From NCBI GenBank assembly GCA_001773385.1, contig MEWJ01000055.1:5304-50527 (forward strand): a stretch of DNA of 45,224 nucleotides, in the 5' to 3' direction. Shown in pieces: positions 21,574 through 39,041 of the stretch. The notes beneath the pieces are model-generated. The model saw only the letters and a program-made list of their open reading frames with translations, did not search any database and was not told where the DNA came from. The stretch comes from a candidate division WWE3 bacterium RIFOXYD1_FULL_43_17 (GTDB lineage: Bacteria; Patescibacteriota; WWE3; UBA101185; UBA10185). How positions within the stretch are numbered: position 1 is the stretch's first letter; the number at the start of each line of letters is the position of its first letter. Made by a program: the position numbers and the translations under genes.

Positions 21574-23124
21574 TTAATCAATCTTCTGATACAAATAGAT
21601 ATTAGGTCTCACCCATAAACTCCCCGGAAACTCTATCTTTTTTACTTCTTCTGTCGTGTACAGATCGCGGTAAGGCTTGTTAATCTCCGGGCTATCGTAA
21701 GTAAAGTCGAACACATAGTTTCTTCTCTCATTTAAATACTTTAGTCTCCACGCATTAGTACCCTGAACTCTTCTGGGTTCTTTATCGTACGCCACAACCA
21801 GCTCCTCAGACTTATTCCAAATATATTTATTTACTAGAATAAAATCCATCGATAATTGGTAGTTATAAAAAATAAGAAAACCCAAAAAGGGTATCACCAA
21901 AATCTTATGAATTAACTTAAAACCGTCTATTCCTAAAATCAAAAAAATTAAAACCGGAATTAAAATCACCAGGTAACGGTCGTAGTAGGTTTCCGTAACA
22001 GTCATGACTCCCATGTAAATAATCGTGAATACCGCCCACAACCCGTTTATTTTTTTAAACTTCAAAAGCGCGTATGCCACAAACGCACTTAAAACAATCT
22101 TAGCCGCAGAATCCCAGTGGCGGTAAAGATCGAACATATACTTAAAATAATATTTTGTGCCCAGTACACCTCTCGGGTAAAAGCCCTTTCTTTCAAGGGT
22201 ATTTTCAAAATAAGGAAATTCTCCCCACGAAACTTTTTGCGGCTGAAAATAGCGGTTCAATAGTATGTAAGCAGCTAAGGCTAAGCCCAAAAATAGCGCC
22301 CACTTAAGCTTTTTCTTCTCTTTAAACACCGGAATCAGTATAGGAAGGAGTAGGGCAGTCATCAGTATAAAAGACCCGTAAATCAACGAATACACATAAG
22401 GAGTATTTTTAAGATGGTGAAACTGAAGGCTTTTTTCCATCATTTCGGCAGTTACAGGAAAGAGCAGGACGTAATACACACCAAGACCCGCTAAAACCCC
22501 GAGGTTTAACAAGATTTGACTCTTTTCCCTTTTGAACAGCGCGTAAACAAGAGCTGACAGGGGTAATACCAAAGCAACCTGCCTAATATTCAAAGCAAGA
22601 AAGATAAAAAGAACGTATAACAAAGTATTTTTCCTTCCACCGGTCTTTACGGTTTCGAGATAGAACAATATGGACAAAAGCATAAAAAATAGGAAATAAT
22701 TTTCCGTCATAAACCCCCACACGGAGTAGATAAAAAGCGGATTAAAAAACATCAGCAAAGAAACGAGCACCGACCCAAACCGTCCCAAATCGAAATGTCT
22801 TAATAAAATTACGTAGAGAACAAAAAAGCATAAAACGGAAATGAATAGGGTTAGGACCGGTAAACTCTCCAAGCCAAAAAGCCACGCAAATAATGTGCCG
22901 AGTACACCCTGTGTATAAAATGTGGGAGCCGACAACGGGTCGAGCCTGAAATCCAACTTCATAAAACTCTCTACCATTCCGTAGTAAACCCAGTCGTCGT
23001 TCTGCATAAAATCTATTTTTATTGATAGGGGAAGCATGAGAAGAAATAGAAACAAAGAAACGGCCGCTCCGGCGGAATACCTGCTTTTTACGATTTTACT
23101 CAACAATCCGTTTTTTAGTTGCAT
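21574..23124 (-). CDS. Multi-TM GT39-like glycosyltransferase
   Basis: MQNDDWVYYGM after TM1, many TMs; overlaps upstream GT gene. Confidence 0.65.
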   Translation of the reverse strand: MQLKNGLLSKIVKSRYSAGAAVSLFLFLLMLPLSIKIDFMQNDDWVYYGMVESFMKLDFRLDPLSAPTFYTQGVLGTLFAWLFGLESLPVLTLFISVLCFFVLYVILLRHFDLGRFGSVLVSLLMFFNPLFIYSVWGFMTENYFLFFMLLSILFYLETVKTGGRKNTLLYVLFIFLALNIRQVALVLPLSALVYALFKREKSQILLNLGVLAGLGVYYVLLFPVTAEMMEKSLQFHHLKNTPYVYSLIYGSFILMTALLLPILIPVFKEKKKLKWALFLGLALAAYILLNRYFQPQKVSWGEFPYFENTLERKGFYPRGVLGTKYYFKYMFDLYRHWDSAAKIVLSAFVAYALLKFKKINGLWAVFTIIYMGVMTVTETYYDRYLVILIPVLIFLILGIDGFKLIHKILVIPFLGFLIFYNYQLSMDFILVNKYIWNKSEELVVAYDKEPRRVQGTNAWRLKYLNERRNYVFDFTYDSPEINKPYRDLYTTEEVKKIEFPGSLWVRPNIYLYQKID

Positions 23125-24640
23125 CTTTATTTACCTTGTATATTCTAACAACCCAGTCGTCATTATTCATTAGTCTTCTTTCTTCAGTTTTCCGGGAGAA
23201 TTGGGGGTAGTTTGACACCTGCACAAAATTTACCGGACGTTTTACTGCGATTATGTAAAACCCCTCTGTTACGCGGTATTTAGCATCCATGTACCACTCG
23301 CTGATGGTTTTGTCTTCATTAGAGATGTAACCGTAATCTTCCCCGGTCTCGTCGTTACGGGAATTAATATAAGCGTTTATCTCATCCCACTGCCTGTAAT
23401 GCGGAAACCCGAAAAGAGGCAGTTTCTGCTCTATGGTGTATTCGGGTGTTATGAGCACGGGTAGTTTTTTTACAAAATTATTGTTCGGATACTTAGTCCT
23501 AAACTCCTCAAAATATACTTTTTGCTCCCAGGGGTACTCATCGGTATGATCTACAAAAATAAAGTACGACTGATAACCTAGGAAGGCGAATACGGGAAGT
23601 ATAAGCATTACCGGTAAAACCTTTGTCCATCTCGGAAAAGCGTTTATTAGTCCGGCTATCCCCAACCCTGCCAAAATAGTGACAGGAAGCACAAAGTTAT
23701 AGATATGTGTGCCCGGTTTTCTCACAAAAAATTCAAAAATTAAAAATGAAAATACAAACCACAAAATGTAAGGAAGCGCCTTTTTGAAACGCATGATTCC
23801 GAAAAGCGCGGCAATTGAAACAAACTCCAAAGCATAAAAAGGGTTGTACAGACGGATAAGTTCTAAATAAGTTCCGAGACTGTGTATTCCTATATCGACT
23901 CTTCTGCCGAAATATTGCTGATTATCCGAAAGTCCCGTAAAGGCCAACATATATGGGATTAAAAAAGGAAGTAACAGCAGACAACCCAGCACGAAATTTA
24001 ATAACAAAATCCTTACCTTGTAACTTCCGGCCTGTGCATTGTTAAATAAAAATCTAATAAAAATGTACAAAACAACCGGGATAATAAAAATTGCGTCCCA
24101 GTGGGACAACACAGAAAGACAGAAAAAGAGCGTTCCCAAAAGGGTACTCCGTATCAGCTTCTTTTCTTTGTACAAAAGATCTGCGTAGAAATAAATCGAT
24201 AAAAAATTAAACAAGAGGTTTAGGTTCTGGTACTGAGCAATCCTCCCAAAACCTACTATAAAGCCATTTACAAGGTAGAGTAGGGAAGAAATAAACGCCG
24301 CCAAACTATCCCCGGAAAGCTTTCTAACCATAAGATAAAACGCTGCGACCGAAAATACCGAAAGCAACGCAAAAGGGAGACGCTGCGCGTATTCATTTCT
24401 AAAATCTTTAGTAATAAAATGGGGAATTTCCGAGACCAAAAATTGCATCGGACCTTTTCTGCGCGTGATAAAAAAATCCTTCAGACTTTGTGCATTAACG
24501 GGCTCGATAAAAGCCTTTCTTTCGTCACCGATGTAGTCAGAATAACCCAGATCTATAAATCTAAACGGAACTGCAAGCAGACTCAAAGCCAAAATTACAA
24601 AAACTGTACGCAAGTTATTTGACAGCCTTATGGTTGCCAA
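23096..24640 (-). CDS. GT39-like glycosyltransferase, paralog 1
   Basis: LGYSDYIGDE..RRKGPMQFLV, FPHYRQWDEI motifs; TTG start in track is uncertain. Confidence 0.7.
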   Translation of the reverse strand: MATIRLSNNLRTVFVILALSLLAVPFRFIDLGYSDYIGDERKAFIEPVNAQSLKDFFITRRKGPMQFLVSEIPHFITKDFRNEYAQRLPFALLSVFSVAAFYLMVRKLSGDSLAAFISSLLYLVNGFIVGFGRIAQYQNLNLLFNFLSIYFYADLLYKEKKLIRSTLLGTLFFCLSVLSHWDAIFIIPVVLYIFIRFLFNNAQAGSYKVRILLLNFVLGCLLLLPFLIPYMLAFTGLSDNQQYFGRRVDIGIHSLGTYLELIRLYNPFYALEFVSIAALFGIMRFKKALPYILWFVFSFLIFEFFVRKPGTHIYNFVLPVTILAGLGIAGLINAFPRWTKVLPVMLILPVFAFLGYQSYFIFVDHTDEYPWEQKVYFEEFRTKYPNNNFVKKLPVLITPEYTIEQKLPLFGFPHYRQWDEINAYINSRNDETGEDYGYISNEDKTISEWYMDAKYRVTEGFYIIAVKRPVNFVQVSNYPQFSRKTEERRLMNNDDWVVRIYKVNKDATKKRIVE

Positions 24641-24699
24641 TTGTAAAAAACCTCCTTCCGGAAAAAAGATGAACGTATCCTGTTTTAGAATTGCATACT

Positions 24700-26208
24700 T
24701 TATTTTTCTTCATTTGCACTCGCTTTATATATCCTCATCGTGTTTTCTCCGTAAACTTCTATCCGCTTGACCGTCTTTTTATTTTTAATCGAAGGAAAGG
24801 TGTAGTCGTTAACAAAGGACAAAGGTCTTTTTACACCTATGGCATAATACTCCCCTTCTTTCCCATATCTTAACGGTAAGTAAAAACCCCCGATACTGGA
24901 CTCTTCGTTGGTAACGTAGGGCAGGTCAGAACCGTTCCTGGCGTTCTCGCCGGCCAAAAACTCAGCTGCTTCCTTCCAACCCCTGTAAATAGGAAAGCCG
25001 ATAATGTTGTTGGGAAGGCTTTGCTGCGAGTAAGGTCTGGTCTTGCGGCCTAAAATATCCTCCTGCGACCAGGGATAATCCACTGAGGGATCCGCGAATA
25101 ATAAATAACCCTGATACGCGAAGAAAGAGAAAAGGGCTATAAGCGCAACAACAACTGCCTTAGACAAAAAACCTTTAAATAACTGATAAAAGTACTGCGC
25201 ACCTAGGGCGGACAATATTACGGCCGGGTAAAAAAGGTTATAAACATGTGTTCCCGGCTTTATGATGATAAACATAAAGGCTGCCAGCGAAAGTAAAAAC
25301 CAATAAAAATATGGGTACGCACGCTTTGACCCTATAAGTCCGGCAAAGGCCAGTGCCCCCAGGGCATATAAATACACAAATGGGTTATACAGTTCAACTT
25401 TTGTAATATATTCTTTAAGGTTATGCATGATATTCTCAAGTGATATCTCAGCCTGACCTACCCGGGTTTTGAAATAACTTATATTCCCCGCATCCGATAA
25501 GGCAACTCCGTAATAATTTATAAAAAAAGGCATAAATATTACCAGCACAGGAAGCGACAATGCACCGATGATAGACCTTCTTTGTCTTCCTCTTAAAGGA
25601 GCAAAAAGAACATATTTAAAAATTAAAAACAATGCAGGGGGAAGAACAAAAACCATATCCCAATGCGACATAATTGATAAAGATAAAAATAACGAACCTA
25701 AAATTGAATTTCTTATCCTGTGATCTTCATCCTTCAATAACGAAAGAAAATACAAACCTGCCGACGAAAAAAGCAGGTTCAGGCTTTGGTATTGTACGAC
25801 CCTTCCAAAGGCTATTAACATTCCGTTTAACCCCAAAAATAGTGTTGCTACGACAGCCACAAACTGCCCTTCCATATTTTTTATGAATTTATAGAAAAAG
25901 AAAAGTCCAAACACGGACGCAAGAAAAAACGGAAATCTGTATGAAAATTCGTCGAAAACATTGTTGTTAAAAATATTCACTGCCTGTGCCACCAAAAACT
26001 GCACCGGGCCTTTTCTCTGCGCAAGTAGAAACCCCGTGTTTATTTCAGAATTTTTAACCGGCGTCATTACAGTAGTTTCGTCTGGAATATATTCGGAGTA
26101 TCCGAGATTTATGAGACGCAATAACACGAACGAAAGGAACACAGCTGTAAGCATTGCGATGTTTGCGTATTTAAGAACTACTGCCAAGTTTTTCTCAAAC
26201 ATATACAC
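24700..26208 (-). CDS. GT39-like glycosyltransferase, paralog 2
   Basis: LGYSEYIPDE..QRKGPVQFLV, FPIYRGWKEA; ATG at 26202 may be the true start. Confidence 0.7.
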   Translation of the reverse strand: MYMFEKNLAVVLKYANIAMLTAVFLSFVLLRLINLGYSEYIPDETTVMTPVKNSEINTGFLLAQRKGPVQFLVAQAVNIFNNNVFDEFSYRFPFFLASVFGLFFFYKFIKNMEGQFVAVVATLFLGLNGMLIAFGRVVQYQSLNLLFSSAGLYFLSLLKDEDHRIRNSILGSLFLSLSIMSHWDMVFVLPPALFLIFKYVLFAPLRGRQRRSIIGALSLPVLVIFMPFFINYYGVALSDAGNISYFKTRVGQAEISLENIMHNLKEYITKVELYNPFVYLYALGALAFAGLIGSKRAYPYFYWFLLSLAAFMFIIIKPGTHVYNLFYPAVILSALGAQYFYQLFKGFLSKAVVVALIALFSFFAYQGYLLFADPSVDYPWSQEDILGRKTRPYSQQSLPNNIIGFPIYRGWKEAAEFLAGENARNGSDLPYVTNEESSIGGFYLPLRYGKEGEYYAIGVKRPLSFVNDYTFPSIKNKKTVKRIEVYGENTMRIYKASANEEK

Positions 26209-26279
26209 CTAAATTCTAGCAAAAAAGTGAACTTATGATATTATATAGACATCCGTAAATATATTGAAAGGGGCAGTTT

Positions 26280-26879
26280 ATGATAAAAGAACTTCCGAAA
26301 CTAAATTACGCATACGATGATCTGGAACCTTATATAGACGCGCTGACAATGGAGACCCACTACACGAAGCACCACCAGGCATACCTGGACAAGTTAACCG
26401 CGGCCATAGCCGACACATCCCTGGAAGACATGGAACTGGAAGATATATTGATGTCGCCCAACTCTATAGGTGAGACCATTAGAACCGCGGTGTTAAACAA
26501 CGGCGGGGGAGTATACAATCACAACTTTTTTTGGAGTGTTATAGGCCCCGCAGAAGGAAAAACCCCAAACGGCGAATTACTCGCAAAAATAAACGAGCTG
26601 TCCGGCTCTTTTGACGCCTTTAAAGAAGAATTTACTAAAAGCGCTTTATCTCTTTTTGGAAGCGGCTGGACATGGCTGGTACAAGGAAAAGACGGGAAAT
26701 TGATGGTGATGAACACACAAAACCAGGCAACTCCTTTGACAGAAGGCTATAAACCTTTGCTGGCGCTGGATGTATGGGAACATGCTTATTATCTTAAATA
26801 CCAGAACAGACGCGCGGATTACATTACTAACTGGTGGAACGTGGTTAATTGGGATAACGTTGCTAAAATGTTAGCCTAA
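26280..26879 (+). CDS. Superoxide dismutase (Fe/Mn family)
   Basis: LPKLNYAYDDLEPYIDALTMETHYTKHHQAYLDKL, NHNFFW, LALDVWEHAYYLKYQNRRADY. Confidence 0.97.
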   Translation: MIKELPKLNYAYDDLEPYIDALTMETHYTKHHQAYLDKLTAAIADTSLEDMELEDILMSPNSIGETIRTAVLNNGGGVYNHNFFWSVIGPAEGKTPNGELLAKINELSGSFDAFKEEFTKSALSLFGSGWTWLVQGKDGKLMVMNTQNQATPLTEGYKPLLALDVWEHAYYLKYQNRRADYITNWWNVVNWDNVAKMLA

Positions 26880-26882
26880 AGC

Positions 26883-28319
26883 TCACTTGACGAGCTTATA
26901 AATCTGAGAAACCTTCGTATCTGCAACATAAAATTCGGTCTCGAGGTTATACTTTGGTGCATTCGCCGTTAAGAAATCCTCTTTAGGATTGTCGATTTCC
27001 TGATTATCTAATATATGGACGTAATACAATGGTAAAAAGTTTGGTCCCGGTCGCGTGTAGGCAAATCCCCTCAAATAAAAATCAGCGTATGAATCATTAT
27101 CGTTTGTATAAACACCGTTAACATCATCCTTATTGTCGAAATAAACTTTGATTTGATCCCAGCCACGGTTGTAAGGAAATCCATATAGAAACAATTGATA
27201 CTTTTTTTCAATTTTATTTATGTTCAAACCTAATACAGAAGATTGCTTCCACGGATACCCTGTATTCAAAGAAGGAACAAAAGTATAAAAAGAAACTCCA
27301 ACGTATAAAGGCAATAAAACGGAAGCAATGAGACGTGCGTATTTACCTGATATAGAAATTATGTAACCGCTTAAAATAATCAACGGCACCAGATAGTTTT
27401 GAATATGGGTACCAGGATTTTTAATAACCAATTCATAGAAACCGAGTGCAGCAACAAACCAGATTTGCACCATATAAATCTTGCGGTCTCCTTTTGCAAA
27501 AAACGAAATAAGACCCGGCAGGGTCAGTATTAAGAAAAGATTAAAAGGGTTATAGACACCCACCGTATATGCCGAATTATTAGGTAAATACCCGCTTCCG
27601 GACATGCGTCTCGACACGTAATTTACCGTGTTGGAAGCTAAATAGCCCTTTAGTATGTACGGGAGATAAAACGGCAATAAGAGCAAAACCGAAGGTAGAA
27701 AAAAGTACTTTAAAAAAGTTACGAGATCCTGCTTACTCTGTGTATAAAATAGAACAGCGGGAATCAGAAAAAATACTCCGTCGTAATGACTGTAAACGGA
27801 TAAAACCCAAAATACTGCAGCGGCCGGAAGATAAATTCTTTTTTTTCTCTCCTTAGATAAAAGAATAAACAAAATAGATAAAAATCCGAACAACATTAAG
27901 AAAGATTGGTACTGCGCCGTACGCCCGAACGCTACACTAAATCCGGAGAACGCATAAATAGTTGAGGAGTAGTATGCCGGATTTTTACCAAAAAGCTTTT
28001 TTACAACGAAATAGAAAACTATGACTGATAATACTGACGCCAGTGTGAATGGTAAACGTATCCAGGCTTCGTTGTACCCTCCTGAAATCTTTTCCATAAA
28101 CCAGGTCGCAATAAATTGTACCGGACCTTTTCTTTGATCCAGTAAAAATTTAGACGCCGTAACCGTCTTATCCAGATAAAGTGTTTTTATTTCGTCACCG
28201 TAATAATGGGAATATCCTAAACCAGAAACACGCACAAAAAAACTTAATAACAACAGTACAATGAGAAAAACTTTTTCGAATCCGAACTTTTTAAGTAATA
28301 CCCCAGGTCTAGTAAGCAT
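26883..28319 (-). CDS. GT39-like glycosyltransferase, paralog 3
   Basis: LGYSHYYGDE..QRKGPVQFIA, FPYNRGWDQI; start refined to MLTRPGV overlapping the trxB end. Confidence 0.7.
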   Translation of the reverse strand: MLTRPGVLLKKFGFEKVFLIVLLLLSFFVRVSGLGYSHYYGDEIKTLYLDKTVTASKFLLDQRKGPVQFIATWFMEKISGGYNEAWIRLPFTLASVLSVIVFYFVVKKLFGKNPAYYSSTIYAFSGFSVAFGRTAQYQSFLMLFGFLSILFILLSKERKKRIYLPAAAVFWVLSVYSHYDGVFFLIPAVLFYTQSKQDLVTFLKYFFLPSVLLLLPFYLPYILKGYLASNTVNYVSRRMSGSGYLPNNSAYTVGVYNPFNLFLILTLPGLISFFAKGDRKIYMVQIWFVAALGFYELVIKNPGTHIQNYLVPLIILSGYIISISGKYARLIASVLLPLYVGVSFYTFVPSLNTGYPWKQSSVLGLNINKIEKKYQLFLYGFPYNRGWDQIKVYFDNKDDVNGVYTNDNDSYADFYLRGFAYTRPGPNFLPLYYVHILDNQEIDNPKEDFLTANAPKYNLETEFYVADTKVSQIYKLVK

Positions 28320-29274
28320 CAGGTTTAACCTGAGCACCGTGGTCAGCGAGAAGTCTGACGGCGTCAAGGGCGGCCATACAACCTATTCCGGAAGCTGTTA
28401 TTGCCTGTCTGTAGTGATGATCAGCCACGTCACCCGCAGCTAAAACACCTTCTTTAGATGTCTTGGTGTTTGAGTTCACGACTATGTAACCTTTGGCGTC
28501 CAGCTCAATAAATCCCTGCAAAAACGATGTGTTAGGTTCATGTCCTATTGCAACAAATAAACCTTTCACGTCATCCATGACTTTTTCCTCACCTGTTTTA
28601 TTGTTTAAAACACGGAGCCCCTCAACATTACGTTCTCCGAGTACCTCTTTAACTTCGGTGTTATATAAAAATTCTATTTTTGGATTATCAGACGCGCGCT
28701 TTAACATTATTTTGCTTGCTTTTGTGTGATCTTCATCTCCCCTGACAAGAATGTAGACCTTAGATGCAAATTTTGTTAAGAAAGTACTTTCTTCCATAGC
28801 GGCATCGCCGGCGCCCACAACCACAACAACTTTATCTTTAAAGAAAAACCCGTCGCATGTGGCGCAAGCAGATACGCCTTTACCTTTCAATCTATTTTCG
28901 CTGTCGAGCCCGAGCCATCTGGCAGAGGCACCGGTTGCTACAATTATTGTTTTAGCTGAAATTTTTTCTCCGGAATCCAAATCAAGTTCAAAGCCTTCTT
29001 CGAATGTGCCCTTTATAGAAGAAACGTTGGCGTCCATAAAAATGGTTCCGAATCTCTCTGCCTGTTTTCGCATATTAGCAATGAGTTCGGGGCCCATAAT
29101 ACCCTCCGGGAAGCCGGGAAAATTTTCAACATCGGAAGTTATAACTAATTGCCCGCCTGCAGGATTGCCTGCAATGACAAGTGTTTTTAAAAGTGCGCGC
29201 GAGGCATATATTGAAGCAGTAAGCCCCGAGGGACCGCCTCCTATTATTATTAAATCGTAAGTTGACTCTTGCAT
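28309..29274 (-). CDS. trxB: Thioredoxin-disulfide reductase
   Basis: IIGGGPSGLTASIYASRA, GVSACATCDGFFFK, VVVVGAGDAAMEE, GVLAAGDVAD. Confidence 0.96.
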   Translation of the reverse strand: MQESTYDLIIIGGGPSGLTASIYASRALLKTLVIAGNPAGGQLVITSDVENFPGFPEGIMGPELIANMRKQAERFGTIFMDANVSSIKGTFEEGFELDLDSGEKISAKTIIVATGASARWLGLDSENRLKGKGVSACATCDGFFFKDKVVVVVGAGDAAMEESTFLTKFASKVYILVRGDEDHTKASKIMLKRASDNPKIEFLYNTEVKEVLGERNVEGLRVLNNKTGEEKVMDDVKGLFVAIGHEPNTSFLQGFIELDAKGYIVVNSNTKTSKEGVLAAGDVADHHYRQAITASGIGCMAALDAVRLLADHGAQVKPDAY

Positions 29275-33277: not shown

Positions 33278-34027
33278 ATGGACAAAGATAAATTTATAAA
33301 TGACATAGTCTTTGAATGGATTAAGCTTGACCTCATGCATATGAAAAATGACATTCCGCCGCGCAAATATGAGCAAGGCAACATACATTTTCCACTCGTA
33401 CTATACACTCTATCCTGTATGGATTTTCTAGGAGCTTTCTTACACGACCGCCCGTTAGGACCAGGAACTAGTAGCATCGGTGATTATATTGGTGGATGTG
33501 GTTTCGATGCGGAAGAATATAACGCAAACCTTCTTAAACAATTGTACAGAAACAACCTTGCCCATAATTACTTTCCATATGGATCGATTACTAGAAACGG
33601 CTATAGCCGATTATTTTACAAAGGACCGCATTACGACATAAACCTAGATGCAGAGAAACTAGTAAATGACTTTCTCGAATCCCTGGCAACTTTTGCAACA
33701 AAACTAACTAATGATAGGTATGAAAAAAGAATGACTGAATACAAAAGCATTAGGGAAAACTTTTTGGAAGACCACAAAGATTTCATAGACAGTTTGGAAA
33801 AATACCCCAATGATGAGGAACTGCATGGTCCTAGTCTTGCTGCACCAGAGGATGAGAGCTCATACACAAGAACAGGTGAAAGCACATCCAATAGTACAAA
33901 CACTAGTGTAGACAAAAACTCAATAAGTGGTCCTCCCATAGGGGCCGGGGATAGTGGTGTAGATGGAAATTATATGCCGAAAAGCGGTCCTAGTGGTGCT
34001 AAAGGCCCCCTTAACATAACAAATTAA
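33278..34027 (+). CDS. Hypothetical protein with HEPN-like Rx4H motif and low-complexity tail
   Basis: LYRNNLAHNYFP (RNxxxH); Ser/Gly/Pro-rich C-terminus; TATGCT-N6-ATG. Confidence 0.5.
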   Translation: MDKDKFINDIVFEWIKLDLMHMKNDIPPRKYEQGNIHFPLVLYTLSCMDFLGAFLHDRPLGPGTSSIGDYIGGCGFDAEEYNANLLKQLYRNNLAHNYFPYGSITRNGYSRLFYKGPHYDINLDAEKLVNDFLESLATFATKLTNDRYEKRMTEYKSIRENFLEDHKDFIDSLEKYPNDEELHGPSLAAPEDESSYTRTGESTSNSTNTSVDKNSISGPPIGAGDSGVDGNYMPKSGPSGAKGPLNITN

Positions 34028-34162: not shown

Positions 34163-34984
34163 ATGAATATTGATCTTGCCAATCCTTCACAAAAGGACAT
34201 TATTGAGAAAACTAAAGATTTTTTGCAAAACGATTTCTTCGGCAAATTTCCCCAAATACAAAATATAGCTGCATTAATTATTGTAGGGTCCATAGCAAAT
34301 AACGACTACGATCAATACAGCGATGTGGATGTCAATGTCTTATTGCCGGAAGAGGTAGATAACAAACCTCTTATTGAATATAAAGAAGAGTTAAGAAAAG
34401 GAGGCTCCAAGATAGAATTAAGATTTGCTAGAAATTATGAGATATTGGAAAAATATTTAAACTGGAATGACGATTTTATTTTAGGCGAATATCAAAACAG
34501 TATAGTACTCCAAGACCCTACAAAAAGATTCACAGAATTAATTAAAAGGTTTGATTGGTATCCTTCAGATGTTTATCAAAACAAACTAGACTGGTTATTT
34601 CACGAGATAACATACACTATCTACCATGAATTAGAAAGTCTGCTAAAAAGAGCGGGCACTAATCAATTCTATGCTCTCGTTATTAAAAATAAACTAATTA
34701 GATATTTTCTCACTACAGTAAGGTTAGCTAACAAAAAATACCCTGTGCACGATAAACGTCTTTACACGACCACAGTTAAACAATGCCCCAATAACCTCGG
34801 ACTCTTAAAATATATAGATGTTTTAGTAACAACTGATGAGAGACAAAGGGTTATAGAAACAGCGGAAGAAGCTAGGTTGGTGCTAGAAAATTACTTAGTC
34901 TCATCGAATTTGCTTTCTAAACAGGATATAGAATATTGGTTAAAATATCAGACTAAGAACAAGAGTAAGATTCTTTTTGAGTAA
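34163..34984 (+). CDS. Nucleotidyltransferase-fold protein
   Basis: LIIVGSIANNDYDQYSDVDVNVLLPEE (GS-x10-DxD); helical C-terminal region; TAAGAT-N6-ATG. Confidence 0.75.
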   Translation: MNIDLANPSQKDIIEKTKDFLQNDFFGKFPQIQNIAALIIVGSIANNDYDQYSDVDVNVLLPEEVDNKPLIEYKEELRKGGSKIELRFARNYEILEKYLNWNDDFILGEYQNSIVLQDPTKRFTELIKRFDWYPSDVYQNKLDWLFHEITYTIYHELESLLKRAGTNQFYALVIKNKLIRYFLTTVRLANKKYPVHDKRLYTTTVKQCPNNLGLLKYIDVLVTTDERQRVIETAEEARLVLENYLVSSNLLSKQDIEYWLKYQTKNKSKILFE

Positions 34985-35049: not shown

Positions 35050-35535
35050 CTAGTAGCGGTTATAACGCGGACCTTGTTTACCCAACACTTGCTGCTGATC
35101 CCCTGTATAAAACCTTCTCATCGGACCCCTTCTGGACCAGATTTCGTTCAGACCTAGTGAGTCAATAATTTTTGCCGACAACAACACTGCAATAAATAAG
35201 GTCAACACTATAACCAGAGGATTTCTTTTATAAGAAAAGTCGTACTTCTTAAGCATCACGACTCCCAAAATAAGAAATGCTAATGCTAGAAAAGGAATCC
35301 ACAAGGGAAAAGAATCGAACATCTGCATAAGACGCCCAGTTCCAGGACCCTGTTTTCTTATTAAAAATAAAGTTAGGTTTGTAAAAAATACTGAGCCGAT
35401 TATAAGACCAACTAATCCCACAAACGAGAGTATTGATCCCAATATAAAATACAGTCTGGGTTTCATTTTTACTTCGCCGGACATAACCTTATCCATTATT
35501 TTATTTTCCAGATTTATTTCGTTTTTGTTTGACAT
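35050..35535 (-). CDS. Multi-TM hypothetical protein, possible anti-sigma partner
   Basis: Overlaps the end of the sigma factor gene by 22 nt; cytoplasmic-looking N-terminus then TMs; SD GAGGA. Confidence 0.6.
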   Translation of the reverse strand: MSNKNEINLENKIMDKVMSGEVKMKPRLYFILGSILSFVGLVGLIIGSVFFTNLTLFLIRKQGPGTGRLMQMFDSFPLWIPFLALAFLILGVVMLKKYDFSYKRNPLVIVLTLFIAVLLSAKIIDSLGLNEIWSRRGPMRRFYTGDQQQVLGKQGPRYNRY

Positions 35536-36062
35536 ATTTTCCTCATTATAGCTTTCGCTCTGTTAATTCTCGTTGCTACAGTACCCATTGGCAATCTTAA
35601 AATATCTCCGATTTCTTCATATGACTTATCTTCTAAATAGAATAGCGATAAAGGTTCCCGGTAGATTAAGTCCATGTTCTCCAGGCACTCGCGGGTGTGC
35701 GCTGCAATCTCCTCTTTCATGTAAGAGTCTTCCACGTCTATACCGCTATCAAAGTCAATGCCGTCATCAAGCACAATATTTTTCTTGTGCTTGTCAATTA
35801 AATTCATAGCCTCGTTATGAACTATCCGGTAAATCCAGCTTGAAAACTTTTTTTTCATGTGGAACCCGTTTAAATTAATATAAGCCTTAATAAAACTTTC
35901 CTGAACCGCGTCACTTGCCTTGGCGTAATCATCAATTAAATATCGCGCGTATCTCATAAGTCTCGTTTGGTACCTCTGGATAATCTCGGCATATAACTCC
36001 TTGTTACCTTTACTAACAAGCTCTACGATTTCTTCGTCAGTTTTATTTTTATAATCATCCAT
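35514..36062 (-). CDS. ECF-type RNA polymerase sigma-70 factor
   Basis: YARYLIDDYAKASDAVQESFIKAYINLNGF, FSSWIYRIVHNEAMNLID, sigma4 HTH KSYEEIGDILRLPMGTVATRINRAKAIMR. Confidence 0.93.
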   Translation of the reverse strand: MDDYKNKTDEEIVELVSKGNKELYAEIIQRYQTRLMRYARYLIDDYAKASDAVQESFIKAYINLNGFHMKKKFSSWIYRIVHNEAMNLIDKHKKNIVLDDGIDFDSGIDVEDSYMKEEIAAHTRECLENMDLIYREPLSLFYLEDKSYEEIGDILRLPMGTVATRINRAKAIMRKICQTKTK

Positions 36063-36128
36063 AGTATCCTCATTATTTTACATTACGCCCCGGTGTTAGT
36101 ACCCGGGGGCGCATAGTCAGCTGCTAAC

Positions 36129-36506
36129 TTAACGATTCATATTTCTGCCGTAACCTCTTCCCGTTCCCTGTCCGGATCCATTCTGAAGACCTAAACCTAG
36201 TTCTTCTCTTATCGTTTGTGCCTCTTCAACCTTACCTTCCAATGCAAGCTTGTGAGCTTCTGCAAAACGGGCGAAGTTTTGTTCATTTATCACTTGTGTG
36301 ACTCTGCCTTTACCCTGCATCAACTCTTTCCAAGCATTGTAATCATTATTTTCGAAGGCTTGAGTCATAGCATCGTGCCTTTCCTCGGAGTAATTTGGAC
36401 CTTGTACCGTAGGGTCTCCTCTATAGGCAAGTGCCTTTTCTGAGAGTAAAAAGAATCCGCTTAAAGCTATTACTGCTGTACCTAACATTATTATTTTTTT
36501 GTTCAC
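36129..36506 (-). CDS. Small secreted protein, Gly/Arg/Asn-rich C-terminus
   Basis: Signal peptide ending in ALA; strong SD GGGAGGTGAT before GTG start; upstream of the sigma gene. Confidence 0.65.
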   Translation of the reverse strand: MNKKIIMLGTAVIALSGFFLLSEKALAYRGDPTVQGPNYSEERHDAMTQAFENNDYNAWKELMQGKGRVTQVINEQNFARFAEAHKLALEGKVEEAQTIREELGLGLQNGSGQGTGRGYGRNMNR

Positions 36507-36645
36507 GATTTATCACCTCCCTAAAATTAACTTTATATACATGTATTACAGGTGGGGGAGTGATTTTCTTTCATTAGTTAGATACATTGGTAGGTCGCCG
36601 CCTTTCTTCTATAAAACCCCACTTTAGAATTTCCCACTTTACAAC

Positions 36646-36651
36646 TACAAT
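36646..36651 (+). promoter_or_regulatory. -10 box TACAAT, 6 nt before ATG 36658
   Basis: TACAAT-ataaac-ATG. Confidence 0.6.
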
Positions 36652-36657
36652 ATAAAC

Positions 36658-38292
36658 ATGAGTCCGAATATCGAGGGTTTACCATTCGCCGAAGAACCTG
36701 GTGAAATACTGGGAAGAGGATATCAGTCAATTGTAAAAGAACTGGGGCCCGATTGGGTAATTAAAGAGTTTAATCCTTACACACCTGACGGAGAGCCCAA
36801 ACGTGCAAGCACCTATAAACACAACCAAGAGGAATCAAATATCCGTGAGTTACAGGAATCACAAAGAATATTACAACAGGATTCTTTATACGGAAAAAGC
36901 TTAATACCTGTTGAGTGGGTACTTGGACAGGACGACGAAGGTAATAAAAAATATTTCATGATTCAAAAAAGATTTGAAGGTGAAACTTTGAAAAAATCGT
37001 TGGAGTCGGAAGATAAGGACTTAAAATATGAAACCAGGTTCGCCAATTTTTTTAATGAGCACCCAAAACTAAGAACCGAAATGATGAGGTTAATGTGGGG
37101 CACTAAAAAAACTTTCGTGGAGACCGGTGTTTTTTCAGATTTTCACCCGGACAACATAGCCATTACTAAAGATGAAAACGGAAACGAGACGTTAAAGGTT
37201 TTTGACGTGCCTAATATCGTGAGGACGCGCAAACTGCTTTACCTGGACCCCGAAGCTTCCGTTGAAACTCAAATATCCATACTTAATAGTACGGAAAAAC
37301 ACGCCGTCAGACTTGAGAAGTACGAAAAATGGCTAGGGGTAACGGAGGAAGAGAAAAGCTCGCTTAATCACGAATATAAGTTAGAAAATACAGTTTACGA
37401 AAAAGCACTTTCAAAAATACTAACAATAGGAGAACAAAACGAACAAGAAAAAGACCTTCCATCCAAAGTACTTACGTGCATTAGTGGCACATACCCATTC
37501 CTCAACCAAGCTGAGTACGATGAATATATGGAAAACGTATCAAGAATCGAACCTAAAAACCCGCTGCACGAAATATCACTGCTAATTAGGTTATTAAATA
37601 ATCCGCACGCGTCTCTGGATAGGTCTAACACGAGAAATAAAAGCGACGAATACGAAGCTAGACCTGAGAGACAACCTTCAGGTGAATTAATCGATGGTGT
37701 CCTTTACCTAAATATACCTACTTTTTCCGGTTCAAAACTAGAGAGCTTGGAAAATGCGTTTCTACCTTATAAAGACGTCAGTGAGGGAATGATAATAGAT
37801 CTAAGAGAAAACAGGGGTGGGAGCGCGCTGAACCCAATACTTTTTGCCGAAAAATATTTTATAAAGGAGGGGGAACATTATGAAGGTACAACTGTAAGAA
37901 TCGCGCCGGAAGGCAGGCTAAGATACACCGATATGTACGCCAGAGCGGAAAAACAGGTTCCTTATGATAAACCTATCGTAATATTAGTATCCGGTAAAAC
38001 TTTTAGTGCGGCAGAAAGATTTACAGCTACAATGAAGGCCGGGACAGATTGCGTCCTAATCGGTACTGATACTGAGGGGGGAAGTGCGGGGCCTATAAAA
38101 TACGAGTTTGAATATAACAACAACAACTACATAGTGAACATACCTGTATGGAGATTTTTTCTAAAGGGAGAGGAAAAGCCCCTCGAGGAAACTAAAATTA
38201 AACCGGACATTCCGTACGAGAAAAGTGACATGGTTGATTTCGCTGTAAACTATATTAAAAACTCAAAAAGACAGGGTACCAAAAGTTCCTGA
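36658..38292 (+). CDS. Kinase-like domain fused to an S41 (tail-specific protease-like) peptidase domain
   Basis: N-term ILGRGYQSIVKE..VIKEF, SDFHPDNIAI, LKVFD; C-term IIDLRENRGGSALNP, PIVILVSGKTFSAAERFTATMKAG. Confidence 0.75.
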   Translation: MSPNIEGLPFAEEPGEILGRGYQSIVKELGPDWVIKEFNPYTPDGEPKRASTYKHNQEESNIRELQESQRILQQDSLYGKSLIPVEWVLGQDDEGNKKYFMIQKRFEGETLKKSLESEDKDLKYETRFANFFNEHPKLRTEMMRLMWGTKKTFVETGVFSDFHPDNIAITKDENGNETLKVFDVPNIVRTRKLLYLDPEASVETQISILNSTEKHAVRLEKYEKWLGVTEEEKSSLNHEYKLENTVYEKALSKILTIGEQNEQEKDLPSKVLTCISGTYPFLNQAEYDEYMENVSRIEPKNPLHEISLLIRLLNNPHASLDRSNTRNKSDEYEARPERQPSGELIDGVLYLNIPTFSGSKLESLENAFLPYKDVSEGMIIDLRENRGGSALNPILFAEKYFIKEGEHYEGTTVRIAPEGRLRYTDMYARAEKQVPYDKPIVILVSGKTFSAAERFTATMKAGTDCVLIGTDTEGGSAGPIKYEFEYNNNNYIVNIPVWRFFLKGEEKPLEETKIKPDIPYEKSDMVDFAVNYIKNSKRQGTKSS

Positions 38293-38321
38293 GACTTCTA
38301 CTTAGTTAACTTCTCAACTGG

Positions 38322-38333: not shown

Positions 38334-39041
38334 ATGCAAGTCAGAATCAACAAATACCTCGCACTCTGTGGACTAGCCTCCCGCAGAAAAAGTGACGAAA
38401 TACTCGCAAGTGGGGGAGTGCGCATAAACGGCAGACCCGCAAAAATTGGCGATACTGTCGACCCCGATAAAGACACCATTACTTACAAAGGCGAACAACT
38501 TTTACCTGAAAACAGGTACGAATACTACATAGTTAACAAACCGATGGGCGTCATTTCAACCGCCAAAGATGAATTTGGACGGAAAAATGTTGTGAGCATG
38601 GTCAACTCGGAACAGAGATTATTTCCTATCGGAAGATTAGATCAGGACAGCACGGGACTAATAATATTAACAAACGACGGAGATCTCGCACTCAAACTCA
38701 CGCACCCCCGTTATCATTTACCCAAAGTGTATGAAGTCACAACCGAAGAACCTGTTTCTGATGAGCAACTCGAAAAATTAGCCAAAGGTGTGGCTGTCTA
38801 TGATAAAAAAACCTTGCCTGCCGAAACCGAGCGTATAGGTTATGACTCATTCAGAATTACACTTTTTCAGGGAATGAAAAGACAGATCCGTGAAATGTGT
38901 AAGGACGTAGGACTTACCGTAAAAATGCTGAACCGCATATCCATCGGACCGATTGAGTTGGGCAATTTGAGAGTCGGCAAATCCCGCATGTTAACCCAGG
39001 AAGAAGTTTGGCAGCTTAAATCCGAAGAGTTCTCCGCTTAA
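38334..39041 (+). CDS. RsuA/RluB-family pseudouridine synthase
   Basis: S4 domain VRINKYLALCGLASRRKSDEIL; FPIGRLDQDSTGLIILTNDGDLA; GMKRQIREMC. Confidence 0.95.
   Translation: MQVRINKYLALCGLASRRKSDEILASGGVRINGRPAKIGDTVDPDKDTITYKGEQLLPENRYEYYIVNKPMGVISTAKDEFGRKNVVSMVNSEQRLFPIGRLDQDSTGLIILTNDGDLALKLTHPRYHLPKVYEVTTEEPVSDEQLEKLAKGVAVYDKKTLPAETERIGYDSFRITLFQGMKRQIREMCKDVGLTVKMLNRISIGPIELGNLRVGKSRMLTQEEVWQLKSEEFSA

Follow-up and report, generated by a model that had tools for sequence, protein, structure and literature searches.

The locus and the fusion gene

The window, that is, the whole 45,224-nucleotide stretch of DNA that was analysed, contains a gene in which a kinase-like region and an S41 peptidase domain are joined in one uninterrupted frame with an ATG start and no internal stops (Table 1). 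All of the motifs that an earlier, sequence-only reading had quoted for this ORF were found in its translation, and no long ORF was found on the opposite strand of 36658-38292.

Table 1. Features of the fusion gene and its surroundings, in window coordinates.
Feature	Position	Strand	Evidence
Membrane protein whose gene overlaps the sigma gene; anti-sigma-like from its position alone	35050..35535	-	Conserved beside sigma
ECF sigma factor	35514..36062	-	Pfam Sigma70_r2, 3.9e-14
Small secreted protein, conserved but divergent flank	36129..36506	-	86% identical in G025; adjoins the sigma gene in G009, G010 and G022
Accessory segment, replaced by ~68 bp in congener G025	36576..38314	+	Flank alignment of the window with L037
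Kinase-like/S41 fusion gene, 544 aa	36658..38292	+	Single open frame; 37330-37475 holds no further start in any frame
Predicted N-terminal kinase-fold domain, residues 1-258: G-loop G19/G21, K36, E67, D161, N166, D183	36658..37431	+	37% identity to L005 protein; AF2 model matches kinases in PDB and BFVD; no Pfam match
S41 N-terminal helical part, residues ~264-324, with candidate catalytic His317	37447..37629	+	TYPFL...LLNNPHA conserved in relatives; model helices 267-311
S41 cap/core, residues ~325-544: oxyanion DLRENRGG, Ser450, Glu510; no PDZ	37630..38289	+	PF03572, Foldseek, residue table
S4/pseudouridine synthase (RluB-like), 41 bp downstream of the fusion gene	38334..39041	+	Pfam PseudoU_synth_2, 4.9e-19, and S4; other conserved flank

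Homology to the congener ends at window position ~36575 and restarts at ~38315; the fusion gene is missing there, leaving a clean empty site, and the flanking genes are arranged as here, with the membrane protein, ECF sigma factor and small secreted protein on one side and the RluB-like gene on the other. Judged from this alignment, the fusion gene is an accessory gene, either inserted here as a single gene or lost in the congener. The three minus-strand genes next to it (35050-36506) form a conserved operon of secreted protein, ECF sigma factor and overlapping membrane protein in several family genomes. Three family genomes have an S41 of the type found in the fusion, and in each of them its gene lies within ~5 kb of this ECF sigma operon, a proximity that is a candidate regulatory lead. 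Elsewhere in the window, a nucleotidyltransferase (NTP_transf_2) gene at 34163-34984 with weak PADLOC PDC-S09 matches adjoins an unassigned 249-aa ORF (33278-34027), and the region 21574-28367 holds four minus-strand ORFs of ~500 aa (21574-23124, 23096-24640, 24700-26208 and 26883-28367), at least three of them mutually related, which resemble a membrane glycosyltransferase expansion.

At the junction, homology of the N-terminal part to a stand-alone protein from another family genome (L005) extends to residue ~258, and homology to an S41 relative from G009 begins at residue ~257-264. For the S41 part, all frames from 37330 to 37475 lack a separate ATG, GTG or TTG start, and codons 188-291 of the ORF hold no in-frame start. 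Because the junction holds no start codon, a correct assembly would mean that the S41 part is translated only within the fusion. The host genome, that of a Patescibacteria bacterium, comprises 863 kb in 59 contigs and is 94% complete.

A PDZ-less S41 peptidase and a predicted kinase-fold domain

The stretch of residues ~266-540 is a true S41 peptidase. Pfam matched PF03572 (Peptidase_S41) to residues 348-519 with an E value of 1.6e-20 and 73.8 bits against a cut-off of 24, PDB sequence matches included IRBP, Bacteroides S41 proteases, CtpA and CPAF, and most of residues 270-540 were confident in the full-chain AlphaFold model (ten-residue blocks mostly 74-94). The alignment behind this model (A8) has 7 residues misplaced in one row, that of a partial N-domain homologue. 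The nearest structure by Foldseek was a B. fragilis S41 protease (E 1.8e-15), with IRBP modules, a Parabacteroides peptidase and NSR among the other neighbours; PDB entries near this half are 8vcb, 4l8k and 4ghn. The sequence-only reading was therefore right about a C-terminal S41-type core but drew it too small, since the region starts at ~266 (TYPFL...LLNNPH) and carries the likely catalytic His317. What it took for a central linker belongs in part to the two domains, residues ~200-258 being the tail of the kinase-like domain, which the stand-alone relative covers, and residues ~266-320 the helical N-terminal part of the S41 domain, which holds the candidate catalytic His.

Active site residues were compared in an alignment that set the window protein beside five relatives and the CtpA encoded in its own genome. 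The S-x-x-E nucleophile motif is present as S450-A-A-E453 within TFSAAERFT, and the serine singled out there by the sequence-only reading, Ser450, is the right candidate and is conserved in the relatives. Ser450, Glu453, Glu510 and N385/G387/G388 of the DLRENRGG motif (residues 381-388) do not differ between the window protein and any of the five relatives; His317 is shared with the four relatives covering that site, so that the alignment contains the conserved upstream His and downstream Glu of Ser-His-Glu (NSR/CPAF/tricorn-like) S41 peptidases. The position Ser+25 is Gly475 in the fusion protein and Lys only in the organism's CtpA, in which Tyr replaces His317 and His replaces Glu510. Neither sequence nor model contained a PDZ domain or a PDZ insertion in this half, and the prc model scored 54 of 218.6 bits, far under its cut-off. 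Lacking both a PDZ domain and a Lys at Ser+25, the S41 half lies outside the CtpA/Prc Ser-Lys subfamily. It adds a new member to a known class.

The best sequence and fold matches, IRBP/RBP3 modules and PDZ-less bacterial S41 proteins (8vcb, 4l8k, 4ghn), share the S41 fold and the N-terminal helical part; however, the matched chains lack an N-terminal kinase-like domain, and the fusion protein has no visible export signal. CtpA, encoded separately in the same genome (L002), has the S41 core in common, whereas its PDZ, membrane anchor and Ser-Lys dyad are all absent from the fusion protein. CPAF and tricorn resemble it in the Ser, a downstream Glu (+60), an upstream His and the lack of a catalytic Lys, a comparison resting on residue numbering that we take to be correct for those enzymes, but the fusion protein lacks a PDZ-like domain, a zymogen segment and a beta-propeller. 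NSR has an N-terminal helical bundle and an active site of His98 and Ser236 (PMC4698656); it resembles the S41 half in its organization into helical bundle, cap and core as well as in the His-Ser active site (fold match 4y68) and differs in being membrane-associated with a TASSAEM motif, where the fusion protein has TFSAAER, no export signal and an attached kinase-like domain. Because of the conserved residues, the missing PDZ and Ser+25 Lys, and the NSR active-site precedent, this half is a PDZ-less S41 domain with a probable His317-Ser450-Glu510 triad. A search for a signal peptide or transmembrane stretch in the fusion protein found none (19-residue hydropathy maximum 0.85, and 0.25 near the N-terminus), and the protein is probably cytoplasmic; the sequence-only reading had likewise seen no signal peptide and no PDZ domain and placed the protein in the cytoplasm.

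For the N-terminal half, residues 1-258 matched no Pfam family up to an E value of 10; NCBIfam returned nothing, and PHROGs and PDB sequences returned nothing significant. The motifs GRGYQS (G19/G21), VIKEF (K36), HPDN (D161/N166) and VFD (D183) are present, and G19/G21, K36, E67, D161-x4-N166 and D183 follow the kinase order and are identical in the stand-alone 328-aa L005 protein of G018, which is 37% identical to the domain. K36, E67, D161 and N166 are invariant across three homologues and D183 is kept in two; a distant 189-aa ORF of G010 retains G21, K36, E67, D161 and N166, and is short and without the DFG-equivalent Asp. These positions supply the conserved Lys, alphaC Glu, catalytic Asp, Asn and metal Asp expected of kinases and APH enzymes, with roles assigned from their order. 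The D161-F-H-P-D-N166 spacing suits the label APH-like, yet no APH profile matched.

The N-domain model shows the order beta3-alphaC-beta4-beta5-alphaE-loop-beta7-beta8 with N-lobe strands 1-2 unresolved, at low confidence (mean pLDDT 60). Among the PDB matches listed by Foldseek, all 50 of 50 were kinases, pseudokinases or enzymes and complexes containing one, each individually insignificant (best E 5e-3, TM ~0.3), and the matches listed from the viral library (BFVD) were mostly protein kinases. The kinase-fold matches listed include WbdD kinase, PknG, HipT and LanKC (lanthipeptide synthetase), which have the kinase topology and the D-x4-N spacing in common with the domain but no detectable sequence similarity. 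As no single PDB match is significant, the model's support for a kinase fold comes from the unanimity of the match list; together with the conserved residues, it makes this fold likely for the N-terminal half. Of the kinase/APH-like N-terminus claimed earlier, the motif layout is present and the fold is likely, and no sequence family or APH profile matched; structure prediction is confident for the S41 half, while for the kinase half it retrieves kinase folds from a low-confidence model. This part may be described as a kinase-fold family without Pfam or subfamily assignment, which may or may not be an active kinase; a pseudokinase or an ATP sensor would also be compatible.

Distribution of the fusion and of its parts

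The fusion occurs in one of 27 family genomes, that of the window. Two others, G009 and G010, carry the S41 domain without the kinase-like part, and G018 carries the kinase-like part without an S41 of the same type nearby. In a phylum sample of 380 genomes, the S41 subfamily was present in five (the window genome included) and the fusion in one, and a search for a second case in the genome contigs and in the class and phylum samples found none. Both of the closest named records that hold a relative are Patescibacteria MAGs. Kinase-S41 fusions were not found in the literature searched either, an absence that is weak evidence. The combination of kinase fold and S41 is therefore absent from the other data and the literature searched, and the architecture is as unusual as the sequence-only reading had supposed. 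A search for viral or phage homologues of the fusion protein found none, and a viral or phage origin was dropped for that reason.

In G010, an unfused kinase-like ORF (L028:2440-3006, minus strand), which shows a distant relationship to the N-domain family (pairwise BLASTP E 3e-5; hhalign 3.4e-6), lies ~3 kb from an unfused S41 gene (L028:5959-6828). That the halves are fused in one genome and near each other in another suggests that they may work together. Widening the N-domain profile with this ORF gave marginal matches only, some of them unrelated. Two more small Patescibacteria proteins without a Pfam family (L045 and L046) appear kinase-like by eye, and together with the G010 ORF they possibly represent a scattered small kinase-like family in these bacteria.

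The closest S41 relative (L027:310-1791, from G009; 51%) carries a different C-terminal extension of ~200 aa, and the S41 domain is modular on this account. By eye, the extension resembles a transglutaminase-like (Cys/His) domain and would be a second fusion partner of the subfamily; Pfam gave no match, and this identity was not adopted.

Possible functions of the fusion protein

Export, and control by PDZ domains or adaptors, are usual among S41 peptidases. The reading that we prefer, for which we consider the case evenly balanced, is a cytoplasmic two-domain regulatory peptidase in which an S41 protease is gated or targeted by an ATP-binding kinase-fold domain. The C-terminal module, a PDZ-less S41 of the IRBP/NSR/CPAF-like kind, would use His317-Ser450-Glu510 to cut peptides or unfolded tails entering its tunnel, and the N-terminal module would bind ATP through K36/D183. 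Standing in for the absent PDZ or adaptor, the kinase-fold domain may gate access to the protease or deliver substrate, with coupling either by phosphotransfer or by plain ATP-dependent binding. The single frame holding both domains, the S41 fold with its conserved triad residues, the lack of a PDZ and an export signal, the separate occurrence of the parts elsewhere and the accessory character of the gene are observed; ATP binding, proteolysis and the coupling of the two domains are what we infer in this proposal, and against it stand the low-confidence kinase model, the occurrence of the fusion in a single genome, the G018 relative with no S41 of the same type nearby and the other partner of the G009 S41. 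The further claim, that a kinase-fold domain replaces the PDZ or adaptor and thereby places proteolysis under the direct control of ATP binding or phosphorylation in a single polypeptide, would constitute a new kind of cytoplasmic protease switch and is tentative, on the doubtful side.

The conserved catalytic residues in both halves, the NSR-type fold neighbour and the accessory single-gene presence would also fit a chain carrying two active enzymes with no coupling between them, one a phosphotransferase of the APH/protein-kinase-like type and the other a peptidase like NSR, which would inactivate one shared target, such as a foreign peptide, in a bifunctional manner. NSR, however, is associated with the membrane and acts on nisin outside the cell (PMC4698656), whereas the fusion protein has no export signal, and with no APH profile match either we regard this arrangement as unlikely. 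Much the same low likelihood is given to an N-terminal domain that is a pseudokinase or binding scaffold, transferring no phosphate and perhaps binding no ATP, which positions substrates or oligomerises the S41 part. The HRD and DFG motifs are indeed not in canonical form, and the short G010 ORF keeps the Lys, Asp and Asn without the DFG-equivalent Asp, but the window protein retains K36, E67, D161, N166 and D183.

A stress or anti-phage cassette, in which the kinase-fold domain would sense a ligand or phage and so set the protease loose on proteins of the cell, would accord with the presence or absence of the gene as a single insertion, with a Doc-like gene near the G009 homologue and with a weak PADLOC kinase match (PD-T4-6, E 0.028) that concerns the stand-alone relative only. 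The fusion protein itself has no PADLOC match, no recognised defence system surrounds the gene and viral or phage homologues were not found, which makes a defence role improbable. An artefact in which a sequencing or assembly error joined two adjacent genes, the failure that the sequence-only reading had itself raised, might be suspected from the singleton architecture and the fragmented draft genome. Against it, the frame is continuous, homology to each half reaches the junction, both flanks align cleanly to the congener and start codons are missing both in frame at codons 188-291 and in any frame at 37330-37475; because the junction offers no start codon in any frame, such an error is very improbable.

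If the preferred reading, a peptidase regulated by its kinase-fold domain, is true, a cytoplasmic PDZ-less S41 peptidase with a kinase fold would offer a compact model, contained in one soluble protein, of how phosphorylation or ATP can gate proteolysis in a bacterium with a minimal genome. The S41 subfamily also illustrates modular reuse, occurring alone, with a different C-terminal extension or with a kinase-like partner.
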